NCBI RefSeq assembly: GCF_902769175.1
Contig: NZ_CACXNW010000003.1
Coordinates: 62,001-126,000 of the forward strand
Length of the DNA stretch: 64,000 nucleotides
Origin: an uncultured Methanobrevibacter sp.
GTDB taxonomy: Archaea; Methanobacteriota; Methanobacteria; Methanobacteriales; Methanobacteriaceae
Direction: 5' to 3'
Shown here: one piece after another, positions 8,651-64,000 of the stretch
How positions within the stretch are numbered: position 1 is the stretch's first letter
Layout: every line of letters starts with the position of its first letter
The notes under the pieces: generated by a model
Told to the model about the DNA's origin: nothing
Seen by the model: the letters and a program-made list of their open reading frames with translations, nothing else
The model's database searches: none
Made by a program: the position numbers and the translations under genes

Positions 8651-11600
8651 TTACAGTTTGGTCGATATAATGCGATCAATTGCACAATCAGTAGTTAACC
8701 TTACATCTACGGTCCTATCATCAAAATACATCTTTCCAAATATACCTTTAAAGCTTATATAACTCACTTCCAGATTAAAGGATTGGCCTTTAGCCAATTT
8801 AACCACTTCCTTGTTATTTGGATCTAATAGATAATCTTTAATTTCATTTAAATCTTCTTTGCTTAAACGAAAACGTAGATTGTTGGTAAATGTTACTTCA
8901 CGTTCTATTTTAGCAGAATTTGCAGATATTTCTTCTGTTTGTTCTGATTTTATGTTTATATTCTCATTTCCTGGTTTGATTATATTTTGATCATTTTTAT
9001 CAACACCATTATTAATAGTTCCCTTAATAGAAGCTTCATCATCATCACCCTTATTACTAGTTCCCTTAATAGAAGCTTCATCATCATCAATTAAAAGGTT
9101 TCTTTTTTCCTCCATTTCAATTTCTTGATCTCTTGAAATAACAGATTTATCATTCCCCTTATTAACCAATGGCCATAGGAATCCACATATTCCTCCAGCC
9201 CAAGCACAAATCACACCAACTGCAGCATAACTGGCAACAATATCAAAACGATTACTATGGTCCCTAGCAGAGCCTCCAATAACAGCATCATCAATAAAAC
9301 CGAAACCTACGCCGATACCGAAACCAAATGCACTAACTGCTACAACATCAATAGCAGCACTAGCAACAGCACCTAAACCAATCAAAGGAATTGCAGCACC
9401 AGCAATAAGATAACCGCATCCAAAAGACAAAATACCGGCAGACCATATTAAAGCAGTACGAATAAGAACCTTCTCTAATTCGGAATACTTTTCATAATCG
9501 TTTACCAAACTACAACCGGAACAATTAAAAAGACCACAATCATCAGTCTCAAAATTCGCAACAGAAACATCACCAGCACCATTAAAAGCCAAATTAACGC
9601 CAGCAAAACTACCATTATAATTATAAATCAAACCATATTCCCCATAGGAATCATTAAAGAAAGTAGAATTGCACATAACTAATGAACCGCCTTCATTATA
9701 AACAAGACAACCGCTATTGCTATTGCCTTCAAAAAGACAATTGGCAAAACTGCAAAGGCCCTTATTCACAACAAGATACTTGGCAAGATTGTCAGTGAAA
9801 TTACAGCCAACAAAACTACAGGAACTTGAAACATTAAAAGCAATGTGATTATAATTACTAAACAGCAAATCAGCAAAAGTGACAGAACCTTTATCAATAT
9901 TTATGGCATTGCCAAAATTGAAATTCACCTTATGCCCGTTTCCAAGAATAAGCAAATCACCATCATAAGCTAATTTAACCAAATCTACATCACAGTCACA
10001 GCTTATGTTCAAAATCAATTTGGAAGGCTCGAAATCTCTAATATCCTCAAGAAGAGTAGGTAAATAATCATTTTTACTTATCAATGCTTCATAAGCTTCA
10101 CAAGACATGCAACTGCTATTATCGCCATCAAAACCAATCCTATAAAAGAATGATCCATTACATAAATCAATGGAAGACTTCAAATCAGAACAAGCCTCAA
10201 CAATAGCCCTGCTAACCTTACCTAAAAACTTGCCATCACAATTAATGAAATTACAAGATTCAAACCTTACAAAACCATTGCTTACATCTAAAGCACCACC
10301 ATTGCCACTGAAACTGCAATTGATGAAATAATTGGAAGCTCCAACACCATACAACACTCCACCAAAACACTTATTATCCAACAAAGAACAATCATTCAAA
10401 ACTAAAGTGCCGTAATTATGGAAAACACCATTGAAATTAGATAAGCTAAGGCCATTCAAGGTTAAAGAACCACCATAACCAATAAATGCAAAATGGTCAT
10501 CAATATTAGTGTGGGCAAGCTTAATCTCAGCACCATTACCATTAATAACAATAGGAACAACACCTACATCCAAAGCATACCTCTCAATCCTATCCGGAAT
10601 ACCGTAATGAGGAACATCAACAGTAGGATGATAAAACTCATCCCTCCAATCCAAAGGTCTAATACAACCATCAGCACAGAGCCAATCACTCTCAATCTCA
10701 TAAACGCCAGGCTGCAAATTAACAACAACTCTCGGACAATTAGGAACCAAGGAATTTAGCAAATAAAGAACACTTTTAAGCTGACCAACATCACTGCAAT
10801 TAAAAACAACCTCACTTCCATTAGATTGGCTAGAGACACTAGACCCACTAGAAACACTAGACACATTAAACTCACTAGAGACACTGCATAAGCAAGCAGT
10901 TGGATCAAAATAGCAATCCCTAAAAATATCACTAAGGTCATCTCTATGATAAATGACAGTCATACTATACTCACAAGCCTTAATAAACCTGGTTCCAGAC
11001 CCTTTAAAGTCACAATCATGAAACATGTTTACAGACTTTGGACCAGCATATAAAATGCCACCCCAAAACTCCCACCATTTACTGAAATCCTTCTCATATG
11101 ATTCCATGGTGGCATGATTTTCCCGGAACACACAATGATCAAAACATGCAGTACCATAATTTGCAATAACACCACCAGAAACAGAAGTAGCCTCATACAC
11201 ATCATTAGGAGTGTCATGATCCTGAGGGTCATTATCAAAGAAATATGAGCCAATGCAATAAACAGTACCCTTGTTCACAACACAATGACGGAAATTCTGC
11301 AAAGTAACATTAACCAAAGAAAGACTGCCTGTGCTTCCAACATAGATAAACTGATTCTCAGCACCATTAACTACAGATCCCATATTACCATTAATGCATA
11401 AGCTAACATGATTTAAATGAAGACAGAACTTATGATAATCACTAAAGCCTGCATCAAAAACCGTATAGGGAGCCAAAGTAACATTAACAAACTTCCAATT
11501 AGCTTTTCCAGTCCCCATAAAATCAAAGAGAGTCTTCAAATCACCACTCTTATCCAGCCAAAAGCTAACGTTCTCCTTATCCAAACTCACATTAGACAAA

Positions 11601-13770
11601 TCATCAAAAACCTTACCTTCTCTCAAATAACTTAATGATAGATGAGTATCTTTAAAATTAACATCTGAACTGAATTCAGGCCCAATATTATGCATATGAA
11701 CAACATTAAGAAAATCTACATCAGACCCATAAACGACACTGGAAAACTCTCCATGATTCAACTCAAAAAAACTATTCACACAACGAACACTACCAGACCC
11801 ACTGTACAATGCACCGCCATTAGCTGCAACATTACCTCTAAAGTAAGAGTAAAAAGGCTTTGTAACATCTTGATCAATATTAACATAAATGTTTTTCACT
11901 GCATAAACAGCACCACCGGAAGGCAAATGTAATATACACTCATTATCCTCAAAGCTAGAATTATAGACAAAGGCATTACTACCAGAGTATACAGCACCAC
12001 CATATGCAGCCATACCAAAATGACTGCCATGTGCAGTATTCTTTTCAAACAAGCTGCCCTTGGAAGTGAAAACACCATCACAACAAATCGCCCCGCCTTT
12101 CTTAAAAGCAGAATTAGAAATGAACAAACCATTATTCAAATATAATGAGCCAGCACAACAGATTGCACCACCATCACCATCATCAACACTATTGCTTATG
12201 AAGCGACATGGATAATCATCACTGATATTATTGATGTAAACACTGCCCTTAGCAAATACTGCATCACCACAATCATCAGCATAATTGCTCTCAAAGAAAC
12301 TGCCATCAACATACACATCAGTATTTGCATATATCGCACCGCCATTATAATCACAGAGATTTGAGCTTCCATCCACATGATTTTTTAAGAATCTGCAGCC
12401 CTTTGCTTTCACTGTTCCAGAACTGTAAACAGCTCCTCCTTTTCCACAAGCTACATTGTCATTAAACTCAGCATAATTGATGATAGCATCACCTTCACAG
12501 TAGATTGCACCACCATCATGATCATCAACCTTATTGCTTATGAAACGGCACAATACACTATTATCATTATAGTTTATGTAAAGTTTGCCTCTTGCATAAA
12601 TTGCACCGCCCCAATCATCAGCATAATTGCTCTCAAATTCACAGCCATCAACATACAAGTCAGCATTTGCATATACTGCAGCACCATTAAAATCATATAA
12701 AGATGAGCTTCCATCCACCTGATTTCTCAAGAATCTGCAGCCCTTTGCTTCGATTGTTCCTGAACAGTAAACAGCACCGCCTTTTCCACGAGCCGCATTG
12801 CCAATAAAACCACAATCAGTAAAGTTTAAAGCAGCTTCACAGTAGACTGCACCACCATCATCAATGCATTATTGCCTTCAAAGCTTGTATTTAAAGCACA
12901 TATTCCTCCTTTTGAGAAAATCGCACCACCATTATCATCATCAGCAACATTGCCTTTAAATAAACAATCCTTAAGGGTTAAAACATTATCAGCCTCATTA
13001 TAAATAGCACCACCATAATCATCAGCCCAATTATTAATGAAACTGCAGTTAATCAAAGTGTATTTAGCAGAACCGGTAATATATATTGCACTGCCCTTAT
13101 CAGTGTAATCGTTATGGCCATTGATAATGCAAAGGTTCTTCAATACAATATTCCCGCTGTTGGAATAGAATGCACTGCATCCTCCTTCACCTAAACAATT
13201 CAAGGTATGGCCATGACCATCAATAGTCAAATCCTTATTAAACTGAATCCTAGAACCATAATTCCCATTATAATCAAAAAACAAATGCAATGTAGAACCT
13301 GAAGAAGCCTTATCTATCTCCCCTTGAAGGACATCAAAAGAAAAAGGCTTAGGACTATGAAAGATTACATCAAAATCACCAATCTTAGGACCATGAATAA
13401 CTAATTCTGTCCCATTTACCACCTTTGGACCTTGAATATTTAATTCAGCACTGTTTTCTTCTTCATCCTTTACCACAGCATCATTAGACTGCAAATCCAA
13501 GTTAGCCATACCCATATTTGAGCTTGAGATATTCTCATCAGCACGAACATTCAAAAGCACAACATCAATCTTAGCTTCTTCATTAGCCATAACACCATCA
13601 TCACAACCAATACCAGAATTAAGACCATCATGAATAATGCCAACATCACATGAATCAAAATTTCCATTAGGAATCAACTCTGCATTTGAACCATTATCCG
13701 CAGCACATACACAATTGATTCCTAATAAAAATACAAGAATTAGTATAAAAAAAGAAATTTTAAATTCCAT
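8651..13770 (-). pseudogene. Adhesin 1: large beta-helix surface protein, reading frame broken once
   Basis: The N-terminal part (13770-12826) starts with a signal peptide ('ISFFILILVFLLGINCVCAAD'). The body is parallel-beta-helix repeats of the form N-C-x-F-x-x-N-x-A-x-D-x-G-G-A-I. Near 12850-12870 the frame changes: the first frame ends in 'MMVVQSTVKLL' while the adhesin continues in another frame as 'DGGAVYCEAALNFTDCGF', leading into the 12730-8651 frame. Joined, it would be about 1,700 residues. The C-terminus has a glycine-rich hydrophobic region (about 9480-9170), a 14-residue tandem repeat (DDDEASIKGT) and a soluble tail of about 90 residues. Surface-exposed adhesin-like proteins of this type are typical of Methanobrevibacter. 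It could be phase-off, decayed or affected by a sequence error. Confidence 0.85.
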
Positions 13771-13790
13771 ATATTTTCACTACCACAAAA

Positions 13791-15394: not shown

Positions 15395-15406
15395 CTGATT
15401 CACTAA

Positions 15407-16547: not shown

Positions 16548-16556
16548 ACAAATCAC

Positions 16557-16735
16557 CTATTTAGATATCCACTCAGGTTTTCCTACTCTGAAAGATTTTC
16601 TGATGTGGGATTTTCCACATTCTTTACATTTGTATCTTAAATCTAATTTTTTAACCGGCTTGTTACCACCTCTTCGTGCATAGTGTGTTTTTTACAGTGT
16701 GGACAGTACGTTCTTTTTTCTTTAGGCATTTTCAT
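16557..16735 (-). pseudogene. rpl44e: 50S ribosomal protein L44e, internally deleted and out of frame
   Basis: From the ATG at 16735 (after AAGGTGAAGAAT) the frame reads '[21 protein letters not shown]', the start of L44e with its first zinc pair, but stops after 30 residues (16643). A second frame, ending at 16557, reads '[19 protein letters not shown]' and 'SHIRKSF', the L44e C-terminal half with the second zinc pair. About 35 central residues are missing and the halves are out of register. L44e is normally about 92 residues and universal in archaea, so an assembly error or an intact copy elsewhere must be considered. Confidence 0.85.
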
Positions 16736-17480: not shown

Positions 17481-20010
17481 TTAACTTGAATCATTCCCTA
17501 AATCAATAAATTGGCAATCATCATCACAAGAAGATTCAAACATGCCCTTAACCTTTGATTTAAAATTACAAAAAAAGGTACAGTTGCGTGCATTAGATTG
17601 ATACATTGCATCACCCCAAATTGCAGTATTGTTGATGAAAGTACAATTGCATGCATTACTACAACTGATTCCTCCACCATAACTACAATAAACGGATGTG
17701 TTGTTGATGAAAGTACAATTGCATGCAGTACCACCATTCATTCCACCACCATTATTCTGAGCCCTGTTGCCTATGAAAGTACAATTCCATGCAGTACCAC
17801 CATTCATTGCTCCAGCATCGTATCCTTCATTGTTTTTGAAAGTGCAATTGTAAGCATCACCATGAGTCATTGCTCCACCCCAAACATATCCAGAGTTGCT
17901 GATGAAAGTACAATTGTATGCATTGCCACCATCGATTCCTCCACCAAACTGTGCGGAGTTTCTGATGAAAGTACAGTTGAATGCATTACCCTTATGAATA
18001 GCTCCACCATCAGTGCATCCTCGATTAGCATTGAAAGTACAGTTGAATGCATTACCTTTATCAATAGCTCCACCGTCCCGATGGGCTATGTTGTTCTTGA
18101 AAGTACAGTTGTATGCATCACCACCAAAAATAGCTCCACCATTACCGCCAATCCTACCATCATAAAAATTGGTTATATTGCTGTCGAAAGTAGAGTTGTA
18201 TGCAGCGCCACCATACATAGCGCCACCATCCAAATAGGCGGAGTTGTTCTTGAAAGTACAGTTGTATACACTACCATCATACATTGCTCCTCCATAATTA
18301 GCACGGTTGTAGAGGAATGTAGAGTTGTATATGCATAAATCTCCATTGGAATAAACTGCACCACCCTGCTTTTCTGCAAAGCATTTTTCAAAGGTACAGT
18401 TGATTATGTTACATTTTTTTTAAGCTTTTAAAGAAGATTGCTCCTCCTTTATCATCATCCTTGTTGAATCCATTGATGAATCTGATGTTTTTAAAAGTAA
18501 CTGATCCGTCAGTGACTTTAAAATAATGATCATGCTTGCTATCTCCAGCTAAATCAATTGTATGACCATGGCCGTCTATGACTATAGATTTATTAATTAT
18601 AATTATTAGCTTATCCTTGATAGTTGCATAATTAGAATTTAGGTTTAAAGTTGAGCCTTCCTTGGCACTGTCAATTAAAAGTTGAAGGCAATAAAGGTTA
18701 CCTGGAAGGCTGGAATCAATTATCTTCACCTTGCCTTTGCCTACAATTGGCTTATCGTCTTTGATAATATTTGGATAAACAGTGAAATTAATTAAACTCA
18801 AATCTTTTCCAGCATAAATTGTTCCAGCAGAATCATCTGCAACATTCCCCATAAAAGAGGAACTATTAACAATTAGATTACCATTGGCCCATATTGCTCC
18901 ACCATCATCATTTGCAGAATTGTTGAAGAAAGCACAAGGGTATATTTCAGCAGTTGAACCTTCAACATCAACAGCCCCCCTACAGTCCTCTGCAACATTG
19001 CCCATAAAATAGGAATTATTAAGAATTAAATTGCCTTTAATCCATATTGCTCCACCATCATCTTTTGCATGATTCCTTATAAAATGACATTTGCATATTT
19101 CAGCAGTTGAACCTTCAACATCAACAGCCCCACTGCAATCACTAGCATTGTTGTTTTCAAATGTACAACCATCTAAATACAAAGAGCCTTTAGAATGGAT
19201 TGCACCTCCATCGTCACCAGCAAAATTACCAATGAAAGAAGAATTGATTACAGTCAATTTGTTTCCAGTCCTATCGGCTATAGCTCCACCATGTTCTTCA
19301 GCCCAACAATTCTCGAAAGTACAGTTGACAATTCTACCTTTGGCATTGCCTTCAAAGGATATTGCACCTCCATTGTCACCATCCTTATTGTAACCGTTGA
19401 TGAAGTTAATATTTTTAAAAATAATATTACCTGATTTCACTACAAAGTAATGGTCATGTTTGCTGCTTCCCTTCAAATCAATAGTATTGCCTTGACCATC
19501 AATAGTGATATCCTTACCACTAGTGATTTTGATTATAAGCTTTTTATCAATTGTTTCAATGTTATTCTTTAAAACAAGAGTGTTGGAATGAACCTTAGGT
19601 ATGTCTGTCTGATACATAACCGCTACCCTTTCACGTAAAGCCTCTCCTGAATCTGTACCGCTGTTATCCATAACTGACACATATAAATTAAGACCATCCA
19701 AATTACTAGCTTCACAGATTACATCAGGAACAGTATCCTTATTTTCCTGTCGATCAGAGCCGTTATCAGAAGAATTATCATCTGATTTTTTATCATAATC
19801 CCTAGGAAGTTCCATTTTTGGCATTTCACCATCATCATTTTCAGAACCAGAACCACTTAAATCAGAACCGGAATCATCCACATCTAAAGATTCATCTTCA
19901 AATTCCGATGAATCCACTACATCAATTTGATTCACATCAGCAGATGAAACAGCACCTGCTGATAAAATAAGCATAATTATAGAAAAAAACAAAATTAGTT
20001 TAAAATTCAT
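17481..20010 (-). pseudogene. Adhesin 2: beta-helix surface protein interrupted at an A8 tract
   Basis: The start is ATG 20010 (after GGAAGGATAT), giving 'MNFKLILFFSIIMLILSAGAVSSAD', a signal peptide; an in-frame ATG at 20028 lacks this site. An acidic, disordered stretch follows, then beta-helix repeats ('NCTFENCWAEEHGGAI' type). At 18414-18421 a run of eight A on the coding strand puts the frame into 'SLKKM' and a stop; with seven A it would read 'SLKKCNIINCTFEKC' and continue to 17481. The second part has about a dozen short repeats 'NCTF-x5-GGAM'. Joined length is about 842 residues. There is no C-terminal membrane anchor. Its N-terminus is nearly the same as adhesin 3, a tandem duplicate. 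Confidence 0.88.
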
Positions 20011-20054
20011 TATATCCTTCCAAAACATAGTCCAATAATACTATTCTAAAAACC

Positions 20055-20152: not shown

Positions 20153-20662
20153 TCTTTAAATCATAAAGAAACTGCAGAAAACTTTTTTTATTTTCAAGAA
20201 AAGATGATTTTAGAAAAATATCAGATTAAAAAGGGCCAGGGGATGTATAGCCCTTTTCTTTATAGATATTCTTCTTTGTATAAATTGCATCACCTAGCCA
20301 TTTAATCGGCCTTAACCTGCAAATCAGTGATGAATGTACAATTAATTGTAATAACATAATCATCTACATTGTCACCTTTTTTTGCAATGTTTTTATTAAA
20401 AATACAGTCAGTTGCAGTTCCCATGAACATTGCTCCACCAACATCGGCAGTATTGTTGTTGAATGAACAGTTGTTTGCATAACCTTCACTTAATGCTCCA
20501 CCATACCTTTCTGCAATGTTGCCAGTGAAAACACTATTATTTGCAATGGCTCCATACATAGCACCACCATATAATGCACTGTTGGAATTAAATGTAGAAT
20601 TTTCCACAAAACAACCTTCCATATAAAGCATGAATACAGCTCCTCCATTTGTTCTTGCAATG

Positions 20663-20950
20663 TTGCCAGTGAAATTACAACCTATTACAGATCCTCCATA
20701 GACTGCTCCACCATAATTTGCTGTGTTGGCAAAAAATGAACAATTTTCCACAACACAAGCATATCCATTAGGGGCATATATAGCTCCCCCATCCGCATTT
20801 GCAATGTTGCCAGTGAAAATGCAACCTATTACATATCCTCCATAGACTGCTCCACCATAATTTGCTGTGTTGGCAAAAAATGAACAATTTTCCACAACAC
20901 AAGTATTTTCATAAGGCGCATATATAGCTCCACCTTTATTTCCAACTTCA
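20663..20950 (-). repeat. Two near-identical 144-bp coding repeats in adhesin 3
   Basis: Segments beginning at 20663 and 20807 are almost the same over most of 144 bp and encode 48-residue units containing 'CVVENCSFFANTANYGG'. The period is a multiple of three, so unequal exchange would add or remove a beta-helix rung set without breaking the frame. Confidence 0.8.
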
Positions 20951-21670
20951 TTATACCCATTTCCGTTTAGGAATCTTATGTTCAAGAATTTCACTTGAGC
21001 ACCTTGGCCTATGTTGAATAGGTGTGCCTTATGTAAACAATCTATGCTAAATCCATTACCATTTATAGTCACGGAACGATTAATAGTGATTCCATTAATA
21101 TAACGTGAATCATCAAGATAAGTACTATTAAAAACATAATTGCCTGATAAGGTAACTTCACTGTTTTCATTGCCATTAATCACATCATCTAATGCATAAA
21201 ATGAACCTTTTGATTGGTTTCTGTAAATTTTATCCGCTTTGACAGAATTACCGTCAACAAACACAACATTGCCGTCCAGATAGACATCTTTATATGACCA
21301 ATCACCTTTTGAGAAAATTGCATCACCATCATCATCTGCCTTGTTTCCTGAAAACAATGCATTTTTTACATAGATATCATTCGTACAATAAATAGCCCCA
21401 CCATCATTGTCTCCAGCCTTGTTACCAATGAAAAATGTATTAATTGGTTGATAGTGAGTTTGATTGAAATTTATATAAACCTTAGAAGCATCAACTGCTC
21501 CACCATAATCTGCTGCATAATTATTTTTAAAGGTACAATTATCAATGCATACAATCCTAGCAAAAATTGCTCCACCAGAATTTTGAGACACTAGTTGTCC
21601 AGATGCCCTATTGGAATCAAACAAACAAGTAGTAGCAGACAAATTGCCATTCATAGTAAAAACTGCACCA

Positions 21671-21765
21671 CCTTGCCATTCTGCATTATTTCCCCTAAAT
21701 CATTATGTGTTTGTTGTTGGTGATATTGATGTTGCCCTTGCCATTCTGCATTATTTCCCCTAAAT
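21671..21765 (-). repeat. 30-bp direct repeats flanking the frame-breaking insert of adhesin 3
   Basis: 21671-21700 and 21736-21765 are identical 30-mers. The 35 bases between them (21701-21735) are low-complexity and encode 'HQYHQQQTHN' in the adhesin frame. Recombination or slippage between the repeats would delete exactly 65 bp and restore the reading frame. Confidence 0.85.
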
Positions 21766-23267
21766 ACTGTATTTTTAATACAGGCTTCATAAAGATAATG
21801 AAGTGCACCACCCTCATTGTCTTCAGACTTACTATTAATGAAGAAAGTGTTAAAGGATTGTTTATCTTGATTTTTATTTATATAAATGTAATCGGCATAG
21901 ACTGATCCACCATAATCATCTGAGGTATTGTTTTCAAAGGTACAATTGTCAATATATACAGTTTCTTCAGAAAGTATAGCACCACCTTGACACTGCTGCG
22001 CTAGTGCTCCAGATGCCTTATTGGAATTGAATATTGATCTTATTACATTGACATCTTTTTTACAGAATATTGCTCCACCATCACATTTAGCCTTATTGGA
22101 GTTAAAGAGACAATCTTCAATATTCAAAAGGCCTTTTGAAAAGATTGCTCCTCCATTGTCATCACCTGCACAATTGGATTTGAATATACACTTTTTGAAT
22201 GTTGATGGCTTGTCTGATTCTATATCGATTGCGCCACCATAATCATCTGCATGGTTGTTTTCGAATATGCATCCTTCCGCATACATAGGACCTTTACAAA
22301 AGATAGCACCACCATCGTCATCACTTGCCTTATTTCCTATGAAAGTGGAGTTTATCACTGTTAATTTGTTTCCGGTTCTGTCTGCTATAGCTCCACCGTA
22401 GTCTTCAGCCCAACAGTTCTTGAATGTACAGTTGATTATTGTACCTATAGCTTTATCTTCAAAGGAGATTGCTCCTCCCTTATCACCATCCTTATTGTAA
22501 CCGTTGATAAAGTTTATGTTTTTAAAAATCACATTGCCTGATTTGACTACAAAGTAATGGTCATGCTTGCTGCTTCCCTTCAAATCAATTGTATGACCTT
22601 GCCCATCAATGGTGATGTCCTTACCATTAGTGATTTTGATTATAAGCTTTTTATCTATTGAACGAATGTCCTGCTTTAAAACAAGAGTGTTAGAATGCTC
22701 CTTAGGTATGACTACCTGATACATTCCACTTAATTTTTCACGTATGCTCTCACCTGAAGCGGTACCGCTATTGTCCATAAATGACACATATAAGTTAAAA
22801 TCTTCAAGTTCATAAGCTTCACAGGCCACATCAGGAAGTGACTCCTTAACATTTAACTTTTCCTTAAGCGCATCAATGCTCTGCCTTAAATCAATTGGAA
22901 TAGTGCGTTCCCTTATTATTTTTCCAGAATACTCAGAATCCGCTTTCCAAGATTCTTCATCATCTAAAGAATCGCCATTAGTTTCCATAGCATCCAATAA
23001 ACGTCCTTTGTCACTGTCAACAGAATTGGCAGATTCCTGTAAAATAAGATTATCTTCAACAGCTAAATCTGTGCTTTCAGAAAAATCTCCAACATCTAAA
23101 GATTCATCTCCAAATCCCGACGAATCCACTACATCAATTTGATTCACATCAGCAGATGAAACAGCACCTACTGAAAAAATAAGCAAAATTATAGAAAAAA
23201 ACAAAATTAATTTCAAGTTCATAATATCATCCTAAAGTATAGTATGCTGATATTATTCTAAAAAAAT

Positions 23268-30222: not shown

Positions 30223-30448
30223 ACTATCTCCCCCTAAACAATAAAATAAATATTATATATAATCAAACATTCGAATATAAAATAAATAATTAATAGCAAT
30301 CAATGTGGAAAATAACCTAATATTCAAATATAAATTGAATTCAAATAATTCAAATAAAAATAAAGCAGCCAATCTATAAAATAAACTAAAAAATGAAAAA
30401 ATAGAAAGTAGAAAAAGTTATGATTAACCTTTTCCAAAAAGTTCAGCC

Positions 30449-37574: not shown

Positions 37575-38615
37575 ATGGTTGAAATTTCAGTGATTATACC
37601 CACATACAATATAGAAAAACATATTCAAAAATGTTTAGATAGTGTAATCAATCAAAGCTTTAAAGATCTGGAAATAATATGCATTGATGACAAGTCAACA
37701 GACAATACTCTAAACATATTAAATGAATATGCCTTAAAAGACCCAAGAATAACAGTTTATCCAAAAGATGAAAACAAGGGAATAGGCGATTCAAGAAACA
37801 TATCATTAACACTTGCAAAAGGCAAATACATTTTCTTTTTAGACAGTGACGATTATATAGTGCCTGATGCACTCGAAAAGGCTTATAATATTTCTGAAGA
37901 AAAATCCTTAGACATTTTAATGTTTAAGATGATACATTTCTATGAGGACAGTGAAGACTATTTCAAAATTAGATACACAGAAATGAGATATTTAAAAAAA
38001 ATTGTACAAGATAAGGTCTTCAATTATAAGGATGTAGAGGAATACCTTTTTTACTTATGCGTAAACCTGCAATGCAAACTCTTTAGAAGGGACTTGATTT
38101 GCGATATAAGATTTCCAAATGAAAAAATATTTGAGGACACCCCCTTTTTCATTGAAGCCATGCTTAATGCTAAAAGGGTTTATTTTCTCCAAGAGCATTT
38201 AACCTACAAATGTGAGAGAAGGAGGTCCCTGTCACATACCCATGACTATAAAAATGCAGATATAATTTATATGGCGGATCATGTTAGTGATGTGTTAAAA
38301 AGAAATGACATCTTTGATGAATTAAAAACTAGTTATTTGCAATTTAGAATTAAACACATTACCTATTACTATAGGTATACAAAGTTCAGATATAAATCTA
38401 AATTCTATGTTCGGATGAGAAGGGATTTTATTGACAATAAACAGGAATATGATAAAGCTTACGATGACTTATACAAAATATACCAAATAATCTATGATTC
38501 TTGCATCAAAACGGAAAATGATAAAATATTTATGCTTAGATCCTTTTGTCAATTTTTAATGCATTTTCCAAGATTAATAATAGATTTTATAAGGGAATAT
38601 TTAAAATGGAGTTGA
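37575..38615 (+). CDS. GT2 family glycosyltransferase, copy 1
   Basis: A 346-residue inverting GT-A glycosyltransferase. The N-terminal nucleotide-sugar fold has 'VIIPTYN' (6-12), 'CIDDKSTDNT' with Asp38-Asp39, and the metal-binding 'LDSDDY' (89-94). The C-terminal 200 residues are helical and shared with the three paralogues downstream. No transmembrane helix is evident, so it acts in the cytoplasm or at the membrane surface. No ribosome binding site is obvious. Sugar and acceptor are unknown; surface polysaccharide or peptide glycosylation are both possible. It is the most diverged of the four. Confidence 0.88.
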   Translation: MVEISVIIPTYNIEKHIQKCLDSVINQSFKDLEIICIDDKSTDNTLNILNEYALKDPRITVYPKDENKGIGDSRNISLTLAKGKYIFFLDSDDYIVPDALEKAYNISEEKSLDILMFKMIHFYEDSEDYFKIRYTEMRYLKKIVQDKVFNYKDVEEYLFYLCVNLQCKLFRRDLICDIRFPNEKIFEDTPFFIEAMLNAKRVYFLQEHLTYKCERRRSLSHTHDYKNADIIYMADHVSDVLKRNDIFDELKTSYLQFRIKHITYYYRYTKFRYKSKFYVRMRRDFIDNKQEYDKAYDDLYKIYQIIYDSCIKTENDKIFMLRSFCQFLMHFPRLIIDFIREYLKWS

Positions 38616-41259: not shown

Positions 41260-42305
41260 ATGGTAGAAATTTCAGTTTTAATCCCTTCATATAATGTGGA
41301 AAAATATATCCGAGAATGCTTAGACAGCATAGCAAATCAAACCTTCGAGGATATGGAAATAATTTGCATTGATGATGGATCAACAGATTCGATTTTAGAT
41401 ATATTAAATAAGTATGCTTTAAAGGATTCTCGAATAAGAGTATATGAAAACAATGCAAATAAAGGAGTAGCATATACTAGAAACTATTTATTAAGTCTTG
41501 CAAAGGGACAATATGTCTCTTTTATAGATGCTGATGATTATCTTGAATTGGATGCCTCTGAAAAGCTCCATAACTTAGCTGAAGAAAAATCATTAGAAAT
41601 GCTGATGTTTAAGATAAGGCACTTTAATGATTTGACAAAAAAGAATTTGAATTCAATTACAGCGAGATGTATTATTTGGAGAGATTCATTGGAGACAATG
41701 TCTTCACTTTTGAGGATGTTAAGGAATTTGCTGCTGAAATGTGTGTCCATTTGCATGGAAAATTGTTTAGAAGAGACCTGATTCAGGATATTGAATTTCA
41801 AAGAGGACGCATATTTGAAGATTATCCTTTTTTCCTTGAAGCGCTAATCAAAGCAAAAAGAATGTATTTTTTCACAGAACATCTATACCACAAACGTGAA
41901 AGAGAAAAATCAATCATGACAAGTTATGATGAAAGCTATTTGGATTTTGTTGATGTGATAGATTTTTCAAAGGATGTTGCAAAAAGATATGGCATATATG
42001 AAGAATTTAAACCATATCTATTTCAATATTATATTCGTACAAATCAATTTATGATAATGCAATTAAGTTTGAAAACCCGATTGAAGTACTTTAAAAAAAT
42101 GAAGGAAAAATATACCGACTATAAAAATGAAATCGAAGAAATTTATTACGATTTATTCTTTATATATCAGACACTGTTTGATTCATGCCTTAAATCAAGC
42201 AATTACATTACATACGAAATAAGGAAAAACTATCTATTCAGAAAAAATAAAGAAAAATTCTGGCAAGAGAGAAAAATGGAAAATTCAGAGTGGGAAAAGA
42301 ATTAA
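41260..42305 (+). pseudogene. GT2 family glycosyltransferase, copy 2, frameshifted at an A6 tract
   Basis: The N-terminal catalytic part (41260 on, 'MVEISVLIPSYNVEKYIREC') and the C-terminal part (to 42305, 'MYYLERFIGDNVFTFEDVK') lie in different frames. They separate near 41635-41645, where this copy has ACAAAAAAG with six A and copies 3 and 4 have seven. With one more A it would read 'TKKEFEFNYSEMYYLER' and give one protein of about 348 residues like copy 3. The nucleotide-binding 'CIDDGSTDS' and a DxD variant 'IDADDY' (not 'MDSDDY') are present. Frame could be switched by slippage; otherwise the gene is a recent pseudogene. Confidence 0.85.
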
Positions 42306-42414: not shown

Positions 42415-43458
42415 ATGGTTAAAATTTCAGTTTTAATCCCTTCATATAATGTGGAAAAATATATCAGAGAATGCTTAGACAGCATAGTTAATCAAACCTT
42501 CGAGGATATGGAAATAATTTGCATTGATGATGGATCAACAGATTCGACTTTGGATATATTGAATGAGTATGCCTTAAAGGATTCTCGATTGAGAGTGTAT
42601 GAAAACAAGGAAAATAAAGGAGTGAGCTATGCTCGAAACTATTTGTTAAATCTTGCAAAGGGAAAATACATCTTTTTTATGGATAGTGACGATTATCTCG
42701 AACTAGATGCCCTTGAAAAAGCTTATAATCTAACTGAAGAAAAATCATTAGACATCCTAATGTTTAAGATAAGGCACTTCAACAACAAGACAAAAAAAGA
42801 ATTCGAATCTGTTTATACTGAGATGCATTATTTGGAAAAATTCATTGGAGACCGGATTTTCGCTTATGAGGATGTTAAGAAATTTGCTCCCCACATATGC
42901 GTCAATTTACCTGGAAAATTATTGAAAAGAGATTTGATTCAGGATATAAAATTTCCAAATCGAAATATTTTTGAAGATAACCCTTTTTTCTTTGAAGCAC
43001 TTCTCAGGGCAAAAAGAATCTATTTTTTTAGAGAATACCTATGCAACAAACGGGAAAGAAAAAATTCCATTATGGAAAGCAAGGATGAAAGCTATTTGGC
43101 AATAATGGATAAGTTTGACAATATTATAGAGATTGCAAAAAGATATGGTAAATATGAAGAACTGAAACCATATTTTTTTAAACACTGCATATCTGTAAAT
43201 CAACAAAGGATAAGGGAAGTGAATTTAAAAACCAGATTTAAGTTTTTCAAAAAAATGAAACAATATTATATCTGCAATAAAAATGAAATCGAAGAAGTTT
43301 ATGATGAGATTCCCTTCCAGTATCAAACAATGTATGAAGCATGCATTGAATCCGACAATTATATTACATACGAATCAAGAGTATTATATCGTATAAATAG
43401 AAATTTAAAACAATACCGAAAAGATGTGGAAATGGAAAACTTAATTTGGAACAAATAA
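42415..43458 (+). CDS. GT2 family glycosyltransferase, copy 3 (intact)
   Basis: 347 residues, full length: 'VLIPSYN' (6-12), 'CIDDGSTDST' with Asp38-Asp39, 'FMDSDDY' (88-94) and the helical C-terminal half common to the cluster. Nearly identical in its N-terminal 100 residues to copies 2 and 4, so the array grew by recent tandem duplication. This is the only uninterrupted member of the closely related trio. Sugar and acceptor are unknown. Confidence 0.88.
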   Translation: MVKISVLIPSYNVEKYIRECLDSIVNQTFEDMEIICIDDGSTDSTLDILNEYALKDSRLRVYENKENKGVSYARNYLLNLAKGKYIFFMDSDDYLELDALEKAYNLTEEKSLDILMFKIRHFNNKTKKEFESVYTEMHYLEKFIGDRIFAYEDVKKFAPHICVNLPGKLLKRDLIQDIKFPNRNIFEDNPFFFEALLRAKRIYFFREYLCNKRERKNSIMESKDESYLAIMDKFDNIIEIAKRYGKYEELKPYFFKHCISVNQQRIREVNLKTRFKFFKKMKQYYICNKNEIEEVYDEIPFQYQTMYEACIESDNYITYESRVLYRINRNLKQYRKDVEMENLIWNK

Positions 43459-43507: not shown

Positions 43508-43614
43508 GAGTGCTCGCCAAAAATATATTTTTATAAAAATTTATTTCTTTATTTTTAAAATGAATGGTTTTTAGATGTTTTTTTAGATATTTTTCATACT
43601 TTTAGCGGATACTC
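43508..43614 (+). mobile_element. MITE-like element A with terminal inverted repeats and CATTA duplication
   Basis: A 107-bp AT-rich element beginning GAGTGCTCGCC and ending GCGGATACTC, imperfect inverted ends. It is directly flanked by CATTA on both sides (43503-43507 and 43615-43619), a target-site duplication of five bases. A second copy in the opposite orientation is at 44694-44794. No coding capacity. Confidence 0.75.
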
Positions 43615-43615: not shown

Positions 43616-44661
<1,046 letters not shown>

Positions 44662-44693: not shown

Positions 44694-44794
44694 GAGTGTC
44701 CGCCAAAACTATAAAAATTATTTCAAAAACATCTAAAAACCATTAATTTTAAAAATAAAGAAAAAAATTTTTAAAAAAATATTGGCGAGCACTC
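44694..44794 (-). mobile_element. MITE-like element B, inverted relative to element A
   Basis: A 101-bp element beginning GAGTGTCCGCC and ending GGCGAGCACTC. Reverse complemented, it matches element A along its length (for example TTTCTTTATTTTTAAAAT and GGTTTTTAGATGTTTTT). Its flanks show no matching target duplication. Together A and B enclose the decayed GT2 copy 4 like a composite unit. Confidence 0.75.
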
Positions 44795-51000: not shown

Positions 51001-54000
51001 TCCTCTTCCATCTTCAAGCAAATTAAACAAGACCTTGGAAGATCCTGTAAATCTGGATAATGCATAAGCAAAAACACTTGAGAAAAATTGATTGTGAGTG
51101 ATTGAGTGGCTTTGCAAAAAGTCTCTTAATTTGCTGTTGTCCATTTCCAAACAGGAGATGATTTCTCTACATTCATTGGAAGATTTCAAGTCAGAAATAT
51201 CTCCATCACCCAAGCTTACAGAAGGCATCAAATCAGAAATATCCTCACCATCAAAACTAACAGAAGGTATCAAATCAGAAACTTCATCACGACTAGCCAA
51301 CATCATATCAAAGAAATCCTGTGCCTCTTTGGAATAGTCTGAATCCAATATGCTCTCTTCAAATGAAATTTGCCTTAAAATACCATCATCAATTGAATTT
51401 ACTTTAGAACCCTGTAAAATTTTTAAAAATGGTTCTGAAAGAACATTGGCAGAAGCACCATCAAAAATTAGATGATGATAATCCATACATAATACTGTTG
51501 AATTTTCAGTGTTTGCTATCAAAAATCTGGATAGATACTTATCCAATTCAAAAGGTTGGACAAACTCATCAATCTCATCAATCGATCCTTCTTTGATTTC
51601 TGGATTGGCATCAAAACTAAGGTATAAATCACCTTCATCATTAACAACACGAGAGGATAAAACAGGATAAACTTCCAATAAACTTTTTATAGCATTTCTT
51701 ATTTCATCTACAGAATAGGAATGATTGAATTCGATTTTAAATGGATTATTATATTCTGTTTTTGCTTCATACCCCATTTCATCAAAATAAACGTTTAATT
51801 GAGACTCAGATAATGGGCATAATCCATCAAATGTATATTTAACATCAATTGTTGTGTGAAGATTCAAATTAAATTTGATTTTGTTTGCAATATTTGCAGG
51901 ATTTCCAAGTTCAATTAGTTCATTGGAAGATAAGGTTACTCCTGTTTTTTCTTTCAATAAGATTTGCATTTTCATTGCAGATAAAGAGTTGCCTCCAAAT
52001 TCCACAAAATCACTATCTATCAAAATAATATCCTGATTTAAAACTTCTTTAAAAGCCTGAATAACAATATAAAGAATCTCATCTTCAATATGATCACTAT
52101 AATTTTGCTTCTTTAACATTTCCTTTATGGAACCCTTATCAATTTTACCATTAACATTTAAAGGAATCTTTTCTAATTCTATAAATAATGAAGGAACCAT
52201 ATAATAAGGCAATTCCATTTTTAAAGCATCTGTTACATCCTCCATATCGACTTCATCATTGATTGTGTAGAAAGCAATGAGAGTATCATGGTCCACATCC
52301 AAATAAATCTCAGAAAACTCATTGAATTCTTTCATAATATTTAAAATCTCATCGGATTCTACCCTAAATCCTCTAACGGATAATTGGTTATCCTCACGGC
52401 CGACAATTTCAATTTCACCATCAAAATTAAAAAAGCCAATATCTCCTGTACGATACATCTTTCCATTATCACTAAATGGATCATCAACAAAGACTTTCTT
52501 GGTTAAATCAGGGTCATTATAATATCCGGAACTTATATACTCACTGGAAATACATATTTCTCCTGGAACGCCTATTGGCATCTGATTAAAATTTTCATCC
52601 AGCACATAAACTCTTTCATTTGGGATTGGTCCACCGATTGATACTTTTTCACTACTTATATCATTTAAATCATAAACTTTCAAAACTCCAATGATTATTT
52701 CAGTTGAACCGTAAATATTGACTAATTTGGTATGTCTCTCTTTTTTAATTAATTCATTTAATTTTGAACCGACTAAACACAAATAATCTAATTTTAAATC
52801 TTCATTTTCATAAATAGGAACCCCTATAGATGGAGGCAAAACTAAACTATTCATAGGATGCTCTTTAAGGGATTTGATCAACAATAAAATATCCTTTTGT
52901 TCCCGTTCATTGAAAATCCTAATGCAACAGCCATAGATTAATGTTACAAATATCAGATATGATGCTATAAAACTAAAGCTAAGGAAACATCCAACAACCT
53001 CACCTGGAGAAATATTAAAAAAATGTGTTATTATAAAGGGCAAGTTAGAAATTTGCTTATTTAAAATCATAACTCCCTTTGGAATATTGCTTGTTCCTGA
53101 AGTGAACATAATGGAAAATAAATCATTGCCCTTAGGGATTATCTCCACATCGACTTCATCATCATAGCTCAAATCTTCAAGAAGTATTGTATCAATATTG
53201 AAATTATTTGAATTTGCAACATCCCTTGTTGTAATGATTTTTTCTATCTGTGCAATATTTATCATATATTCTATACGATTAATAGGCAATAAAAGGTCAA
53301 TTGGAACAAATGCAGCGCCAATTTTATTCAATGCCAATACCAATTCAGGGAAATGATAATCACGAGGAAGCATTAACGCAACATGATCTTTGAAACCAAT
53401 TCCATAATTCTCATGCAAGTCATTAGCAACTGAATTGCTTGACTTTTCCAAATCTCCATAAGAAACCTTATTTACCCCATCATCAACGGCTATTGCATCA
53501 GGATGGGCTAAGGCATAGTCGCGGAAATTTTTTGCAAATACCCCGTCATCATCAATTTCAATTTCCTTTCCCTTGCAAAAATCTGAAAGCAAATCTTTTT
53601 CATTAGGTGAAAGAAGATTAATGTCTTTTAAAAGCTGATTAGGGCAATCAATTAGATCCTTTATCAAAAACTCAATATTTTCTGCCATATGATTCATGTA
53701 AACATCTGAAAAAAGATCCTGACTATAAACTAAATTCAATGAATTTTCATAAACATTTAATGTTAAAGAAGAATTTTCTCCATTTAATACAGTCACATCT
53801 TCAGACAATCCAGTAAAATCATAAATGCCGTATGAATAAAATACAGTATTCAAATAATTGTCAATATCCACTTTTGTATTTTCAGTTGCAAGTTTGTAAA
53901 CTTTCTTAATTTCCTTTAAATAATCAAGGAATGAATAATCTTTAAAAAATTTAATTTTTAAATATGTGCTTTTATCAAATAATCCAAAATCATTGGATAC

Positions 54001-54666
54001 AACAGATTTTAAAATGGAACCAGGAGATCTATCGATTCTAGACAAATATAGTGCAAAAATTGCAGTAAAGAAATTGAATTTAGAAATATCATGCTCATTT
54101 AAAAATTTAGTGGTGGCCTCATTATCAAATGAAATTTCAATATTTCTATAATCATCTGATTTGAGGTTATAGAACTTAACATAATTACCGGCATCTGAAA
54201 AATAATTATTCCAAAAATCAGAATCTCTTTTAAAATCATATGAAGATAAATAATCATCTACATCATCATAATATCCTAAAAGGTCATTTTCAACTGATTT
54301 ATACTGTGGATTATTAAAAATCTCACAAAATTTATTTATTGAAGAATAATCAAAAATCAAATGATGGATATTTGCTAAAATAGTTAATTTTTCATTATTT
54401 TTTAAAACTAAAAATTTGTATAATGGTGAATCAATAACAATATCAAACTTGAAATTAAAGAATGAATCAATTTCCCTATCAATCTCATTAATATTAAAAT
54501 CAGAAACATCGTTAAATTCATAAATTATTTCATCGTTAGTGTAAAAAGGTTTTAAATTTTCATCAAAACGTATATTTAATAAAGATTCAATTCCTTTAAA
54601 AAAATCCGCCAAATAATCATTATCAGCGGGAATATTCTTTATTAAAAATTTAATTTCATTATTCAT
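45007..54666 (-). CDS. Three-module nonribosomal peptide synthetase with terminal thioesterase
   Basis: 3,219 residues, uninterrupted. Order: condensation 1 ('HHLIFDYSS', ~100), adenylation 1 ('FTSGTSNIPKG' ~520, 'YGSTE' ~650), carrier 1 ('FGGNSL' ~889); C2 ('HHLIFDGAS' ~1063), A2 ('YTSGTTGLPKG' ~1529, 'YGPTE' ~1662), carrier 2 ('LGGDSL' ~1908); C3 ('HHLIFDERS' ~2079), A3 ('YTSGSTGVPKG' ~2563, 'YGPTE' ~2694), carrier 3 ('LGGDSL' ~2940); thioesterase ('GYSSGG' ~3072, final His ~3198). The product should be a three-unit peptide or peptide-like compound. C1 lacks about 20 N-terminal residues including the 'LSxxQ' motif. A1 appears to lack the usual pocket Asp. GGTGGTC precedes the ATG. No phosphopantetheinyl transferase is in the window. 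Confidence 0.95.
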   Translation of the reverse strand: MNNEIKFLIKNIPADNDYLADFFKGIESLLNIRFDENLKPFYTNDEIIYEFNDVSDFNINEIDREIDSFFNFKFDIVIDSPLYKFLVLKNNEKLTILANIHHLIFDYSSINKFCEIFNNPQYKSVENDLLGYYDDVDDYLSSYDFKRDSDFWNNYFSDAGNYVKFYNLKSDDYRNIEISFDNEATTKFLNEHDISKFNFFTAIFALYLSRIDRSPGSILKSVVSNDFGLFDKSTYLKIKFFKDYSFLDYLKEIKKVYKLATENTKVDIDNYLNTVFYSYGIYDFTGLSEDVTVLNGENSSLTLNVYENSLNLVYSQDLFSDVYMNHMAENIEFLIKDLIDCPNQLLKDINLLSPNEKDLLSDFCKGKEIEIDDDGVFAKNFRDYALAHPDAIAVDDGVNKVSYGDLEKSSNSVANDLHENYGIGFKDHVALMLPRDYHFPELVLALNKIGAAFVPIDLLLPINRIEYMINIAQIEKIITTRDVANSNNFNIDTILLEDLSYDDEVDVEIIPKGNDLFSIMFTSGTSNIPKGVMILNKQISNLPFIITHFFNISPGEVVGCFLSFSFIASYLIFVTLIYGCCIRIFNEREQKDILLLIKSLKEHPMNSLVLPPSIGVPIYENEDLKLDYLCLVGSKLNELIKKERHTKLVNIYGSTEIIIGVLKVYDLNDISSEKVSIGGPIPNERVYVLDENFNQMPIGVPGEICISSEYISSGYYNDPDLTKKVFVDDPFSDNGKMYRTGDIGFFNFDGEIEIVGREDNQLSVRGFRVESDEILNIMKEFNEFSEIYLDVDHDTLIAFYTINDEVDMEDVTDALKMELPYYMVPSLFIELEKIPLNVNGKIDKGSIKEMLKKQNYSDHIEDEILYIVIQAFKEVLNQDIILIDSDFVEFGGNSLSAMKMQILLKEKTGVTLSSNELIELGNPANIANKIKFNLNLHTTIDVKYTFDGLCPLSESQLNVYFDEMGYEAKTEYNNPFKIEFNHSYSVDEIRNAIKSLLEVYPVLSSRVVNDEGDLYLSFDANPEIKEGSIDEIDEFVQPFELDKYLSRFLIANTENSTVLCMDYHHLIFDGASANVLSEPFLKILQGSKVNSIDDGILRQISFEESILDSDYSKEAQDFFDMMLASRDEVSDLIPSVSFDGEDISDLMPSVSLGDGDISDLKSSNECREIISCLEMDNSKLRDFLQSHSITHNQFFSSVFAYALSRFTGSSKVLFNLLEDGRGHIDLSNSVGMFVRTLPLLLDCKNQSVSSFLRYSADMVNSAMKYDLYPFRVLANEYDLDSSILFQYLPSMIQSDNFSIEELRHDENSDLLFNLYDCNDGRFAVRVFHSNKFSIDFVKSFIDAFSRIALEILDVDLLADINYVCEKDLEFLDSFNQTEKDMDYADILDAFNDNLSKNPDNALVSFKDSSYSYAEGAFIASQISNNLNDLGIESGECVSFLLSRSEWYLFSILGILASGSIFVPLDSSHPDERLRFMVEDTSSKVIIVDDSTYPRAKELFADLTLLNVADINVNGELSQLSVSYNDLACILYTSGTTGLPKGVKNTRKSILNVCAFYNDKYDLDENDVYGLFSGIGFDVTIFVINAVLYSGACLSVVPDEIRLDMHRMNEYFKEQNVSHAFITTQVSKLFMNNVDCSYLDLLLVIGEKLGEFDNSGDYALVDAYGPTEAFAFVTAIENNEKIDYSSVGLIDYNMKSYVLDDELRRVPVGAVGELYLSGDQLADGYLNRPEKTAEAFLDNPFTDNPYDDGYSIMYRTGDMVRILPDGTIGFIGRRDTQVKIRGNRLELGEVEAIIRQLDYVKDLSVQTIQNGDNHELVAYIVCDEKYNDSIKEFISENKPDYMVPSHIINLERIPLNANGKVDKKALLDIGFNDSKTEYIAPRTDVEKDIVNAFENAFNMSKISLLDDFANLGGDSLIAIKLISYLKDYNVTSADIMSLRTPKAIADNITEDTFEWDIYSIDEGCPLNESQLNIYLDVATRMDVDSYFIPFVIPIPKEFDENEIITALNMLFMVHPICSMCINDDYEIPHMVKGRVPSISVMSNADDIEIYKFLADPFDLHDSLCRFLIVKNDDGHVLYSVFHHLIFDERSIHVFKHDFKHILNGGYIDFSNSSFDEERVDLIAYSNEELADLISDSSEESIKFDDSFLKVSAFHTQIKNTEQYKDAQEFYGSMLSDFDSAGQLLEDVLPDGPGFASCDLDFDRDLLEEFLRKNSISEYVFFTSVFSYTLSRFTGSNKVGFCVDDHGRDRFNNFDSIGMYVNTLPLLVDTEDKEISLFVEDMSNLIYNVLRYNYYPYRNLIFDHELDMEILFQFFPAWLNKDDLFYNVDNKIIDNIVDFNMDLIMNVNQKDDGYTLNAQYSSKYSKSTINRFMETYNRVLSQMMCVEKLSDIEYTDSSDLELLDSYNEREMEIIYDDILDAFNDNLAKCPDNKLVSYNDISYTYGEGAFIANEIKKLLNGAGIQSGDFVPFLVPRSEWYPLLNLGILSVGAIYVPLDDIHPDERLKFILNDIDSRVLIVTDDTYERAKALSDDLILINVSNIVKEDIGTLSYLEYEYGDLVSVHYTSGSTGVPKGVLGRRKAITNLCQYYIDNYDLDSNDVYGLHTAIGFDVSIFVIAVSIIAGACLSVIPEDARLNMAKLNDYFISQNITHSFITTQLGKLFMEDVDDAPLDVLFVIGEKLGDVASPENYQLVDSYGPTETFNYVSHISNSQKIHHSSVGYISYNMKSYVLDEELRRVPIGALGELYLSGRQLAQGYLNRDEGTSNAFLDNPFEEIEEYAKMYRTGDMVRVLPDGSLGIIGRKDGQVKVRGNRVELGEVEAVIRDLTFVKDVTVQTIRNGDNYELVAYVVYDDVLPVVKSVKDHVTERKPHYMIPSYVIELDEIPLTVNGKVDKNALPEVEFESLMSDYVPPSTETEKIVVDAFKAVFNLEKIGIYDDFVKLGGDSLKSIRVTTFLSKNNIEFNARSILLERTPYSIAQIIDYVDCDNSCSLIKKGINDQNMFLIPPMTGFSFEYSNLVHSIDFEGNVYAIDDPKFNLSLEEIKSLENHGKYTLDKFYELIKDIFNDGDILVGYSSGGIFSLLLAEKLEKEGKTAKCILIDGLLAFKDVLYTRETLYKDALVHWKHHEFDFIVGIERKGTKFEKFVEITLQNVNIDFKEPRLNSPVLYLSTGELFTIEQINEKLDLISPNNKIKLIESTNHSDILKVDYWKLVPFFNGDF

Positions 54667-59090: not shown

Positions 59091-59119
59091 CTGTTAAATT
59101 CAATGCTGATTATGATAAA

Positions 59120-60760: not shown

Positions 60761-60845
60761 AATGAAAAAACTAAGAAAAAAACTAAATCAATAGCTAGAA
60801 TAAAAAAAAAATGAAAAAAAACTTAATCAAAAACAACCAAAAATA

Positions 60846-60866
60846 AAAAAAAAAAAAAAAAAAAAA
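60846..60866. repeat. 21-base poly-A tract between convergent genes
   Basis: A run of 21 A lies between the QueG-like gene (stop 60760) and adhesin 4 (stop 60891). On the minus strand it is a T-run placed just after the adhesin stop, so it could act as a T-rich archaeal terminator, or as a slippage-prone site. Confidence 0.7.
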
Positions 60867-60890
60867 TAAGTGAAAAAATTAAGAAAAATC

Positions 60891-63800
60891 TTAATTAATC
60901 ACTGCTGGAATGTCCTTATATAAGTCATCCATATTAAAAGGACACACTTCATTAAAGTTAGCACGTGGAAGAACTTCAGTTACTACTTCAGCAACAAAAT
61001 CGATACCTATGTCAACAAGCCACGCTAAAAACTTTGTTTGTTTGGTAGTTTCAATAAGTCCAACTTTGAAAACATTTTTACTTATAGCATTTGCAGCAGC
61101 ACCTGCAATACCATCCAATATACCTACAATAGCCATCATCATAAAGAGATTGCCCATATGAACATCATGCTCCCAACAAGCATTTTCAATATATTCTTCA
61201 ACTCCAGCTAAGATTGCTCCACCAAAAAAGCAAATAACACCTGCTGCAGCTTCTGAAATACCTATGGAAGAGGTGCTAACTACCAGTACGAGACAGGCAG
61301 AAATTTCAGCAATTCTCAAAGCCCATCTGCCAAACTCACTTGGTATATCTGAAGTAACATTAATTGGTTCCTTTGAAACAATGCCTCCATTATCGCGAAT
61401 GACATATGAATCACCGACAAAAGTGTATTTTGCATCCTCTCCGAAAGCAAAGAAAGCATTTTCATCACTATTTTGAGAATCTTGGATTACGCAACTGTCA
61501 ACTATAATATCACCATAGTCATTATATACTGCATTTCCATCATCAGTGGCATCATCATTTGCAAAGAAGGTATGATTCAATGTCATTTCTCCATAATGAT
61601 TAAAGATAGCACCACCATCTTCAGCAATATTCCCTGTGAAATTACAGCCTTGACAATATACAAGTCCCTTTTCATTATATAATGCTCCACCTTTTTCATC
61701 AGCATGATTGTTATTGAAATTAGAGTTTAGGCAATACGCTGTTCCAACAAAATTATAAATTGCCCCTCCATCACTACGTGCCATATTAGAAGTGAAATTA
61801 CAGAAATTACAAATGAATATTCCCTTTTCATTATATACTGCCCCTCCATATAATGCATTATTGTTATTAAAAGAGGAAAAAGCAACATAAGCATAGGCGT
61901 TTTGATAATTGAAGATTGCAGCCCCATAATCTTTTGTAAGGGTAAGATGATTAATTAAGCTACAGTTAATGGTTGAGTTATACATTTGCAATGTACCATT
62001 ATTTTTAATAGCTGCATTGAATCCAACTAAATTAACACTGTTTATTAAGCAAAAACATCCTGAATCAAGAGTTAAGAATATGCTATCAAATGATTTGTCT
62101 TCATTATCCTTTACATTAACTATTGCACCATTTCCTTGAATAAATAAGTTTTCCACATTAGGAAAATGTAAAGAAGCTGCGAACTTATAAATATTATACA
62201 CCTTTCCTTGAGTGAAATTCAAAATTACGTTTTTGACATAAGGTATTTTATTTATAATAAAATTATAATTGAAATAATCATCCTCATCCTCAATATTTAC
62301 ATATAAAGTTTGATCCCCTAAATTAAAAACTTGACAAAATGCACCTGTGCTTGAATGAATATTGATTTCATCATTATTGGAAAATTGAGGTTTTTGGCTT
62401 TTAAAGGAAGCAACATTATCTTTAAAAATAGGTGAAATGATGGTGGATTGACTTCCAACCTCATTAAAAATTGCACCTCCACTCATTGCCTTATTATTAC
62501 TGAATCGGCAATCCTCGCATTTTAAGACACCTTTATTGTTTATTGCACCACCAAAGCCAATCATAACACCATTTTGCTCAAAACTCACATTTGTTAAATG
62601 GCATGAGCCACCATTAAGAATAGCTGGTGCAAATCCTTTTATGGTAATATTGTTCATTGATAAAGAGGCATTATTAGTGATATTAAACAAAGCGTTATTG
62701 TTCAGGAGAAAAGATTGTATATGAGAGCTTATTGTCGCTCCATTACCCCCTAATAACAATATTTTTAACTAAATCAGTTTTCATTAATACATTTGCCCAA
62801 GAATCAAATTCAAGATTCAAATTTTCCTTAAAGTCAATGAGTACAAAATCATAGGGAATTTTATTATTTGAAATAAAACTTGTTACATTTTTAAAACTTT
62901 CCAAATCATAAACGGCAAATCTATATAGGCTTAAAGTGGCATTATTGTTGAAAGTTAATGAGAATGCATTATCTGATATTTTATTAATGGAATAATTAGT
63001 TGCATTGATGACATCCCCCATTGTAATATTTATATCCTCATCACTTCCAATATTGACTGCATGGGTTTTCCAATGAATTTCACCTAAAACGCAAACAGCG
63101 GAAAGATCCTCACGACTTTGACATTTGTTTTTCTTGAAACTACAATCACATAAGACTATATTATCTACGGAATAAATTGCCGGACCCCACTCTTTAGCTA
63201 CATTACCCTCAAAATATGAATTGCAGATTTCTGAATTAACATGAAGCCAAATTGCTCCTCCCTCATTGTCATTTGCAACATTATTTATGAAGAAGGATGA
63301 AATTGTAGAATCTACTTGATTGACATTTACTTTTACTTCATTTGCATGTATTGCTCCACCATAATCCTCTGCATAATTATTTGTAAATGTGGAATTGGAT
63401 ATATATGCAACATATCTGGCGTATATAGCCCCTACATAACATTGAGAAGCTTTAGCCCCTTCTGCCCTATTGGAATCAAATATGCAGTGATTAAAGTCAA
63501 CATCACGTTCAGAGTAAATTGCTCCCCCATCAACTAGAGCAGTATTTCCTCTGAAGCAAGCATTTGAAGCACTTACAAGGTCTTTTGCTAATATTGCTCC
63601 TCCATTATTGTCTCCTGCAACATTATTAATGAAAAATGTATCAAATCTACCAATGGATTTATTAAAATTTATTCTTACAGTCATTCCATATATTGCTCCA
63701 GCAAAATCCATTGCACGATTATTTATAAAGGTGGAATTGTCTACATATACATCTCCTTTGGAATAAATTGCTCCACCATAGCAGTCAGGATTATCTGTCC

Positions 63801-64000
63801 AATGATAAATGTATTCATACCAAGACCAATCACGAGATTTGACCTCATTGCTACTGAATGTTGAATTTTTAACACGAACATCTCCTTCACTATAAACTCC
63901 TCCCCCATTTTCATCTGCAATATTTGAATCAAAGGAAGAATCTTCAATAGTCACAGTGCTTAGGGAGTAAACAGCTCCACCATGAACATTTATTGCTTTA
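60891..64000 (-). pseudogene. Adhesin 4: beta-helix surface protein, 5' end outside window, frame broken at G5
   Basis: The frame is open from the right edge (64000) to 62743. It reads beta-helix repeats ('NSTFINNRAMDFAGAIYG' type) and ends 'VLMKTDLVKNIVIRG'. The second frame, to 60891, continues 'GGNGATISSHIQSF'. They part at a run of five G on the coding strand (62746-62750); with four G the join reads 'VIRGNGATI', like the 'NGNGAEI' and 'DGHGHTI' of the other adhesins. The C-terminus has two or three hydrophobic glycine-rich segments ('AAAGVICFFGGAILAGVEEY', 'MMMAIVGILDGIAGAAANA') and a 60-residue tail. The signal peptide lies outside the window. Confidence 0.87.

Follow-up and report, generated by a model that had tools for sequence, protein, structure and literature searches.

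Nivala, Shipman and Church are said to have observed, in 2018, off-target ('non-canonical') spacer integration at array-like sites by overexpressed Cas1-Cas2 in E. coli, and reportedly a few putative natural cases. The resemblance to an array is said to be a trait of the E. coli sites and not of the integration reaction itself. Frameshifts in surface genes are also a trait of simple-repeat phase-variable contingency genes. Here we describe adhesin-like genes (ALPs) of an uncultured, rumen-type Methanobrevibacter (genome G000), starting from a window of 64,000 nucleotides (G000:C3:62001-126000) that contains four of them. Each of ALP1 to ALP4 is split between frames, as a preliminary description of the window had stated. 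The family resembles the known Methanobrevibacter adhesin-like proteins in being secreted, multicopy and equipped with Chlam_PMP-type repeats: such repeats are present in both pieces of ALP1 and in ALP2, ALP3 and ALP4, and ALP1 to ALP3 have signal-like starts; the start of ALP4 falls outside the window. It differs in that the majority of its members are broken. For Methanobrevibacter ruminantium M1, 105 adhesin-like proteins have been predicted, and the text of that paper does not mention frameshifts or pseudogenes (PMC2812497).

Genomes and procedures

The source genome is a draft of 3.12 Mb in 65 contigs (88.46% complete). About a third of it, 1.1 Mb, was sampled, including 13 later-added stretches mostly chosen for relatives of ALPs or GT2 glycosyltransferases. 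Comparisons involved 0.88 Mb of the metagenome-assembled genome G008 and 0.26 Mb of G011, a finished genome that we take to be M. ruminantium M1. Counts of broken loci were restricted to ALP loci with a length of 600 nt or more, and adjoining ALP pieces were also merged if the downstream piece had no signal-like start. A codon-pair frame model was built to detect frame changes reference-free. Its sensitivity was similar for both gene classes, with 56 of 150 simulated indels recovered as explicit shifts in ALPs and 44 of 150 in other genes. The p-values are single tests, picked post hoc.

Decay of the adhesin-like genes

In the ALP family of G000, lesions that break the frame occur at an even rate of 0.35 per kb, and conserved genes are largely spared. 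Frames are broken in 52 of 84 ALP loci. The corresponding counts are 1 of 17 loci for M1 and 2 of 16 for G008; both broken ALPs of G008 belong to the same locus, each at the end of one of two neighbouring stretches, and possibly count as one. In G000 the frame model located 30 frame changes across 269 kb of ALP sequence and 14 across 617 kb of non-ALP coding sequence (p = 4e-7). Applied to 149 kb of ALP DNA outside G000 (M1, G008 and other loci), the model detected no frame change. The contrast described earlier is confirmed and goes beyond chance.

Lesion counts per locus fit a uniform Poisson distribution. At 0.35 per kb, 33.9 intact loci are expected and 32 were observed, with a dispersion of 0.88. 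Interior stretches picked irrespective of ALPs gave a lesion rate of 0.37 per kb. In stretches of G000 taken without selection, ALPs make up about one quarter of the DNA, versus 5-6% in G008 and the M1 flank, and some of the loci hold three to eight lesions. The lesions look young, because long frames remain open beyond them and the ratio of nonsynonymous to synonymous substitutions (dN/dS) between paralogues is still about 0.25 where one or both ALPs are broken; just three pairs had both copies intact. The earlier characterisation of the window adhesins as rapidly decaying surface loci holds genome-wide.

Ordinary decay of ALPs together with misplaced spacers, with selection sparing essential genes, probably explains the contrast between gene classes. 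The contrast would then reflect selection and not switching, because mutations and stray insertions may land widely, those in essential genes would be purged and individual adhesins may be dispensable enough for lesions to persist. The resident Cas1-Cas2 integrase would now and then put spacers outside its array.

Conserved genes and possible assembly faults

Judged against relatives, G000 has about 10 broken genes among 213 conserved ones. G008 has 2 among 255, broken by a 53-bp and a 59-bp deletion. The claim that housekeeping genes are spared stands for the window, in which a nonribosomal peptide synthetase (NRPS) gene of 9.66 kb (45007-54666) and nearly all conserved genes are open. Genome-wide it has to be restricted, with about 5% of the conserved genes and a second NRPS gene (C14) broken. 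This second NRPS gene (L142, G000:C14:1-20000) has three frameshifts and a nonsense codon, and stops are also present in neighbouring genes. Small lesions affect genes for a MacB/FtsX permease, a capsule-synthesis protein, a xanthine/uracil permease, a P-type ATPase and a nicotianamine synthase homologue, which are regarded as dispensable functions. The shift in the MetRS gene (L183) may reflect a natural division of the gene, because GGTGA and an ATG come after it, and is therefore not firm evidence of damage.

Errors of assembly or sequencing, with most lesions absent from the organism, are an unlikely explanation. They are suggested by deletions of 100 and 74 bp in two genes that are expected to be essential, rpl44e in the window and the gene for NrdD (L253 18113-19031), which lost part of the C-terminal cysteine-rich region. 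Conserved genes of G008 and G012 have comparable deletions, that in rpl44e of G012 differing from the one in G000, and the completeness is 88%. Of these deletions, the ones in rpl44e (G000 and G012) and in NrdD resemble faults of the assembly. The ALP lesion density, however, is several-fold above that of conserved genes, the small lesions in conserved genes affect dispensable functions and nonsense substitutions are present. Contig starts and interiors show equal ALP lesion rates, and few near-identical ALP pairs were available to mislead the assembler. Assemblers also have no reason to settle on 30 and 36 nt, the lengths that characterise the insertions described below.

Lesion types and phase variation

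The ALP lesions are a mixture of small indels, nonsense substitutions and insertions. In-frame stops account for 19 lesions and involve all three codons (7 TGA, 6 TAA, 6 TAG); this spread led to the rejection of stop-codon recoding. A G-to-T mutator or oxidative damage was rejected as well: among the private substitutions of 15 conserved genes in the window, G>T is not in excess.

The preliminary description had placed the lesions in short tracts and had suggested phase-variable loci serving an antigenic or phage-evasion strategy. A tract is found at or beside the lesion in ALP2 (A8), in ALP4 (G5) and in a GT2 gene (A6), but ALP1 is not broken in a homopolymer. Reversible switching of ALP and GT2 genes through short-repeat slippage would suit these three sites, a shift at an A15 run in another ALP (L180) and the frequency of frameshift zones with a run of at least 6, which is 10 of 68 versus 3.6 expected. 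This modest excess is also the expectation from ordinary slippage, and 85% of the zones are without such a run. Runs of at least 6 or at least 7 per kb are rarer in ALPs than in other genes, and for runs of 8 or more the two classes are alike (0.050 versus 0.039 per kb). The few long-tract lesions, the 19 nonsense lesions, the loci with several lesions and the uniform Poisson distribution make phase variation very unlikely, and the suggested strategy was not upheld. Unlike contingency genes, most of the broken genes are without a hypermutable tract and many of the lesions are irreversible.

Spacer-like insertions and the resident CRISPR-Cas locus

The disruption of ALP3, previously read as a slippage duplication, is a spacer-like insertion: a 30-nt duplication flanks an insert of 35 nt. 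In general, an insert of roughly 36 nt sits between two direct copies of a target that measures about 30 nt. A scan of G000 for exact direct repeats with a spacing of 40-200 nt yielded 7, 9, 6 and 3 pairs at 65, 66, 67 and 68 nt and only scattered pairs elsewhere; the mode of the repeat length was 30. Control DNA of 2.4 Mb contained one repeat pair at 64-69 nt. The list of sites in the 1.1 Mb comprises 24 entries, 15 in ALPs (5.8 expected), 8 in other genes and 1 intergenic.

A PINc-ATPase gene is split by an insert in G000, and its joined flanks match 19 other genomes. The match covers the whole query of 100 amino acids over 300 nt in 18 genomes and is 48 nt shorter in G012. Insert-free sites in paralogues were found for L139, L187 and ALP3, which together with the PINc-ATPase gene were the four sites checked. 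A second full-length copy in the assembly is lacking for 22 of the 23 inserts searched; the remaining one matches C23 of this genome exactly. A motif or a hairpin at the insertion sites was considered and rejected.

The lengths of duplications and inserts match the resident array (repeat 30, spacers 35-37, period 65-68). G000 has a single cas1, located within the locus cas6-8b-7-5-3-4-1-2. The assignment to type I-B is based on cas8b with cas6, 7, 5, 3, 4, 1 and 2 and on the adjoining array (G000:C4:81973 onward, L265). This array is unusually long and holds 283 repeats of 30 nt with spacers mostly of 35-37 nt and a 66-nt period. In cas4 (L266, about 1290-1500), ATT stands at the position of the ATG of M1 and G013, and between cas3 and cas4 (L266) sits a mini-array with one spacer. 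Another CRISPR array was observed elsewhere (L186 14287-15000); its repeats measure about 36-38 nt.

What the sites share with off-target Cas1-Cas2 integration is that, away from the array, an insert as long as a spacer is flanked by two copies of a target as long as a repeat. We infer Cas1-Cas2 as the maker from the lengths and the resident locus. Slippage or filler repair as the source of the 30/36 structures would suit the lack of a target consensus. Such an origin is highly improbable: both lengths match the resident array, nearly all inserts searched are without a second full-length copy and the spacing scan peaks at 65-68 nt alone. A silent adhesin archive that serves antigenic variation via gene conversion would fit a large family with a majority of broken members, but is dismissed as extremely improbable, with stretches of at least 90% identity common to just a handful of ALP pairs in the sampled third and old paralogues (dS about 1).

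Off-target Cas1-Cas2 integration may even continue to act in this lineage as a mutagen of the whole genome and add to the decay of surface genes, a tentative view that is less probable than its opposite. It would belong to an unusually active adaptation module, with the 283-repeat array, a cas4 without a standard start and the extra one-spacer array.

Several points weigh against decay with misplaced spacers. M1 has the same cas4 and cas1, but its 260 kb contain no such insertion; at the density of G000, about 6 are expected. A further cause is therefore needed, and the ATT start of cas4 and the one-spacer array between cas3 and cas4 are candidates. A search of phage records with the inserts and a search of IMG/VR with three of them gave no match. 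A target consensus was not found over 12 exact sites, nor a likeness to the leader-repeat junction. Spacer-like lesions make up just a part of the 94 in ALPs, and some assembly faults are suggested by the loss of 74-100 bp from NrdD and rpl44e. The merging of adjacent ALP pieces rests on a rough signal-peptide test, and the evidence comes from one draft assembly of a single strain.

Other genes of the window

Two of the four GT2 genes in the window are broken, as described before, and this is a local figure: PF00535 matches define about 22 loci genome-wide with about 3 broken, 2 of them in the window (Table 1). The GT2 pseudogene is bracketed by two copies resembling miniature inverted-repeat transposable elements (MITEs) at 43508-43613 and 44694-44794, in opposite orientation and with GAGTGYYCGCCAAAA ends, and an A38 run (43619-43656) lies at its expected start. 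MITE-like GAGTGYYCGCCAAAA ends occur 5 times in the 1.1 Mb of G000 and not in the controls.

The damage to rpl44e was correctly noted before; its cause is an internal deletion and not a slip in a tract. The G000 assembly contains no second rpl44e copy. In RUG11990 (L003), rpl44e is also internally deleted, by 58 bp, at a place abutting the deletion of G000. A NUDIX gene (29809-30237) is without ATG at the expected start, a possible start-codon lesion.

Table 1. Positions of the adhesin-like, GT2 and rpl44e features within the window.
Feature	Position	Strand	Remark
ALP1, adhesin-like gene	8651..13770	-	Two frames; net -1 shift near 12862-12866, without homopolymer
rpl44e	16557..16735	-	100-bp internal deletion, junction 16671/16672
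ALP2, adhesin-like gene	17481..20028	-	Two frames; +1 versus paralogues at or beside A8 18414-18421
ALP3, adhesin-like gene	20302..23222	-	Disrupted by spacer-like insertion at 21671-21765
ALP3, 30-nt target duplication, lower-coordinate copy	21671..21700	-	Exact repeat
ALP3, spacer-like insert, 35 nt	21701..21735	-	Without second full-length copy in assembly
ALP3, 30-nt target duplication, higher-coordinate copy	21736..21765	-	Exact repeat
GT2, intact	37575..38615	+	
GT2, 1-nt loss	41260..42305	+	A6 at 41637-41642; paralogue has A7
GT2, intact	42415..43458	+	
GT2 pseudogene	43657..44661	+	5'-truncated, start region gone beside A38; at least 2 more lesions
ALP4, adhesin-like gene	60891..63999	-	Continues beyond window; +1 versus one paralogue at G5 62746-62750

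Meaning for the methanogen

The situation differs from off-target integration in E. coli in that it concerns a natural type I-B methanogen, with about 24 sites per 1.1 Mb and without a site consensus. The density of putative natural stray spacers appears to be new. The whole genome would hold about 70 of them if the sampled third is typical. If the reading is true, CRISPR adaptation can strew stray spacers over a natural genome at a measurable density and break genes, and the fidelity of Cas1-Cas2 integration would become testable in an archaeon. The decay is also relevant for the targeting of methanogen adhesins, as most adhesin genes are broken in G000.
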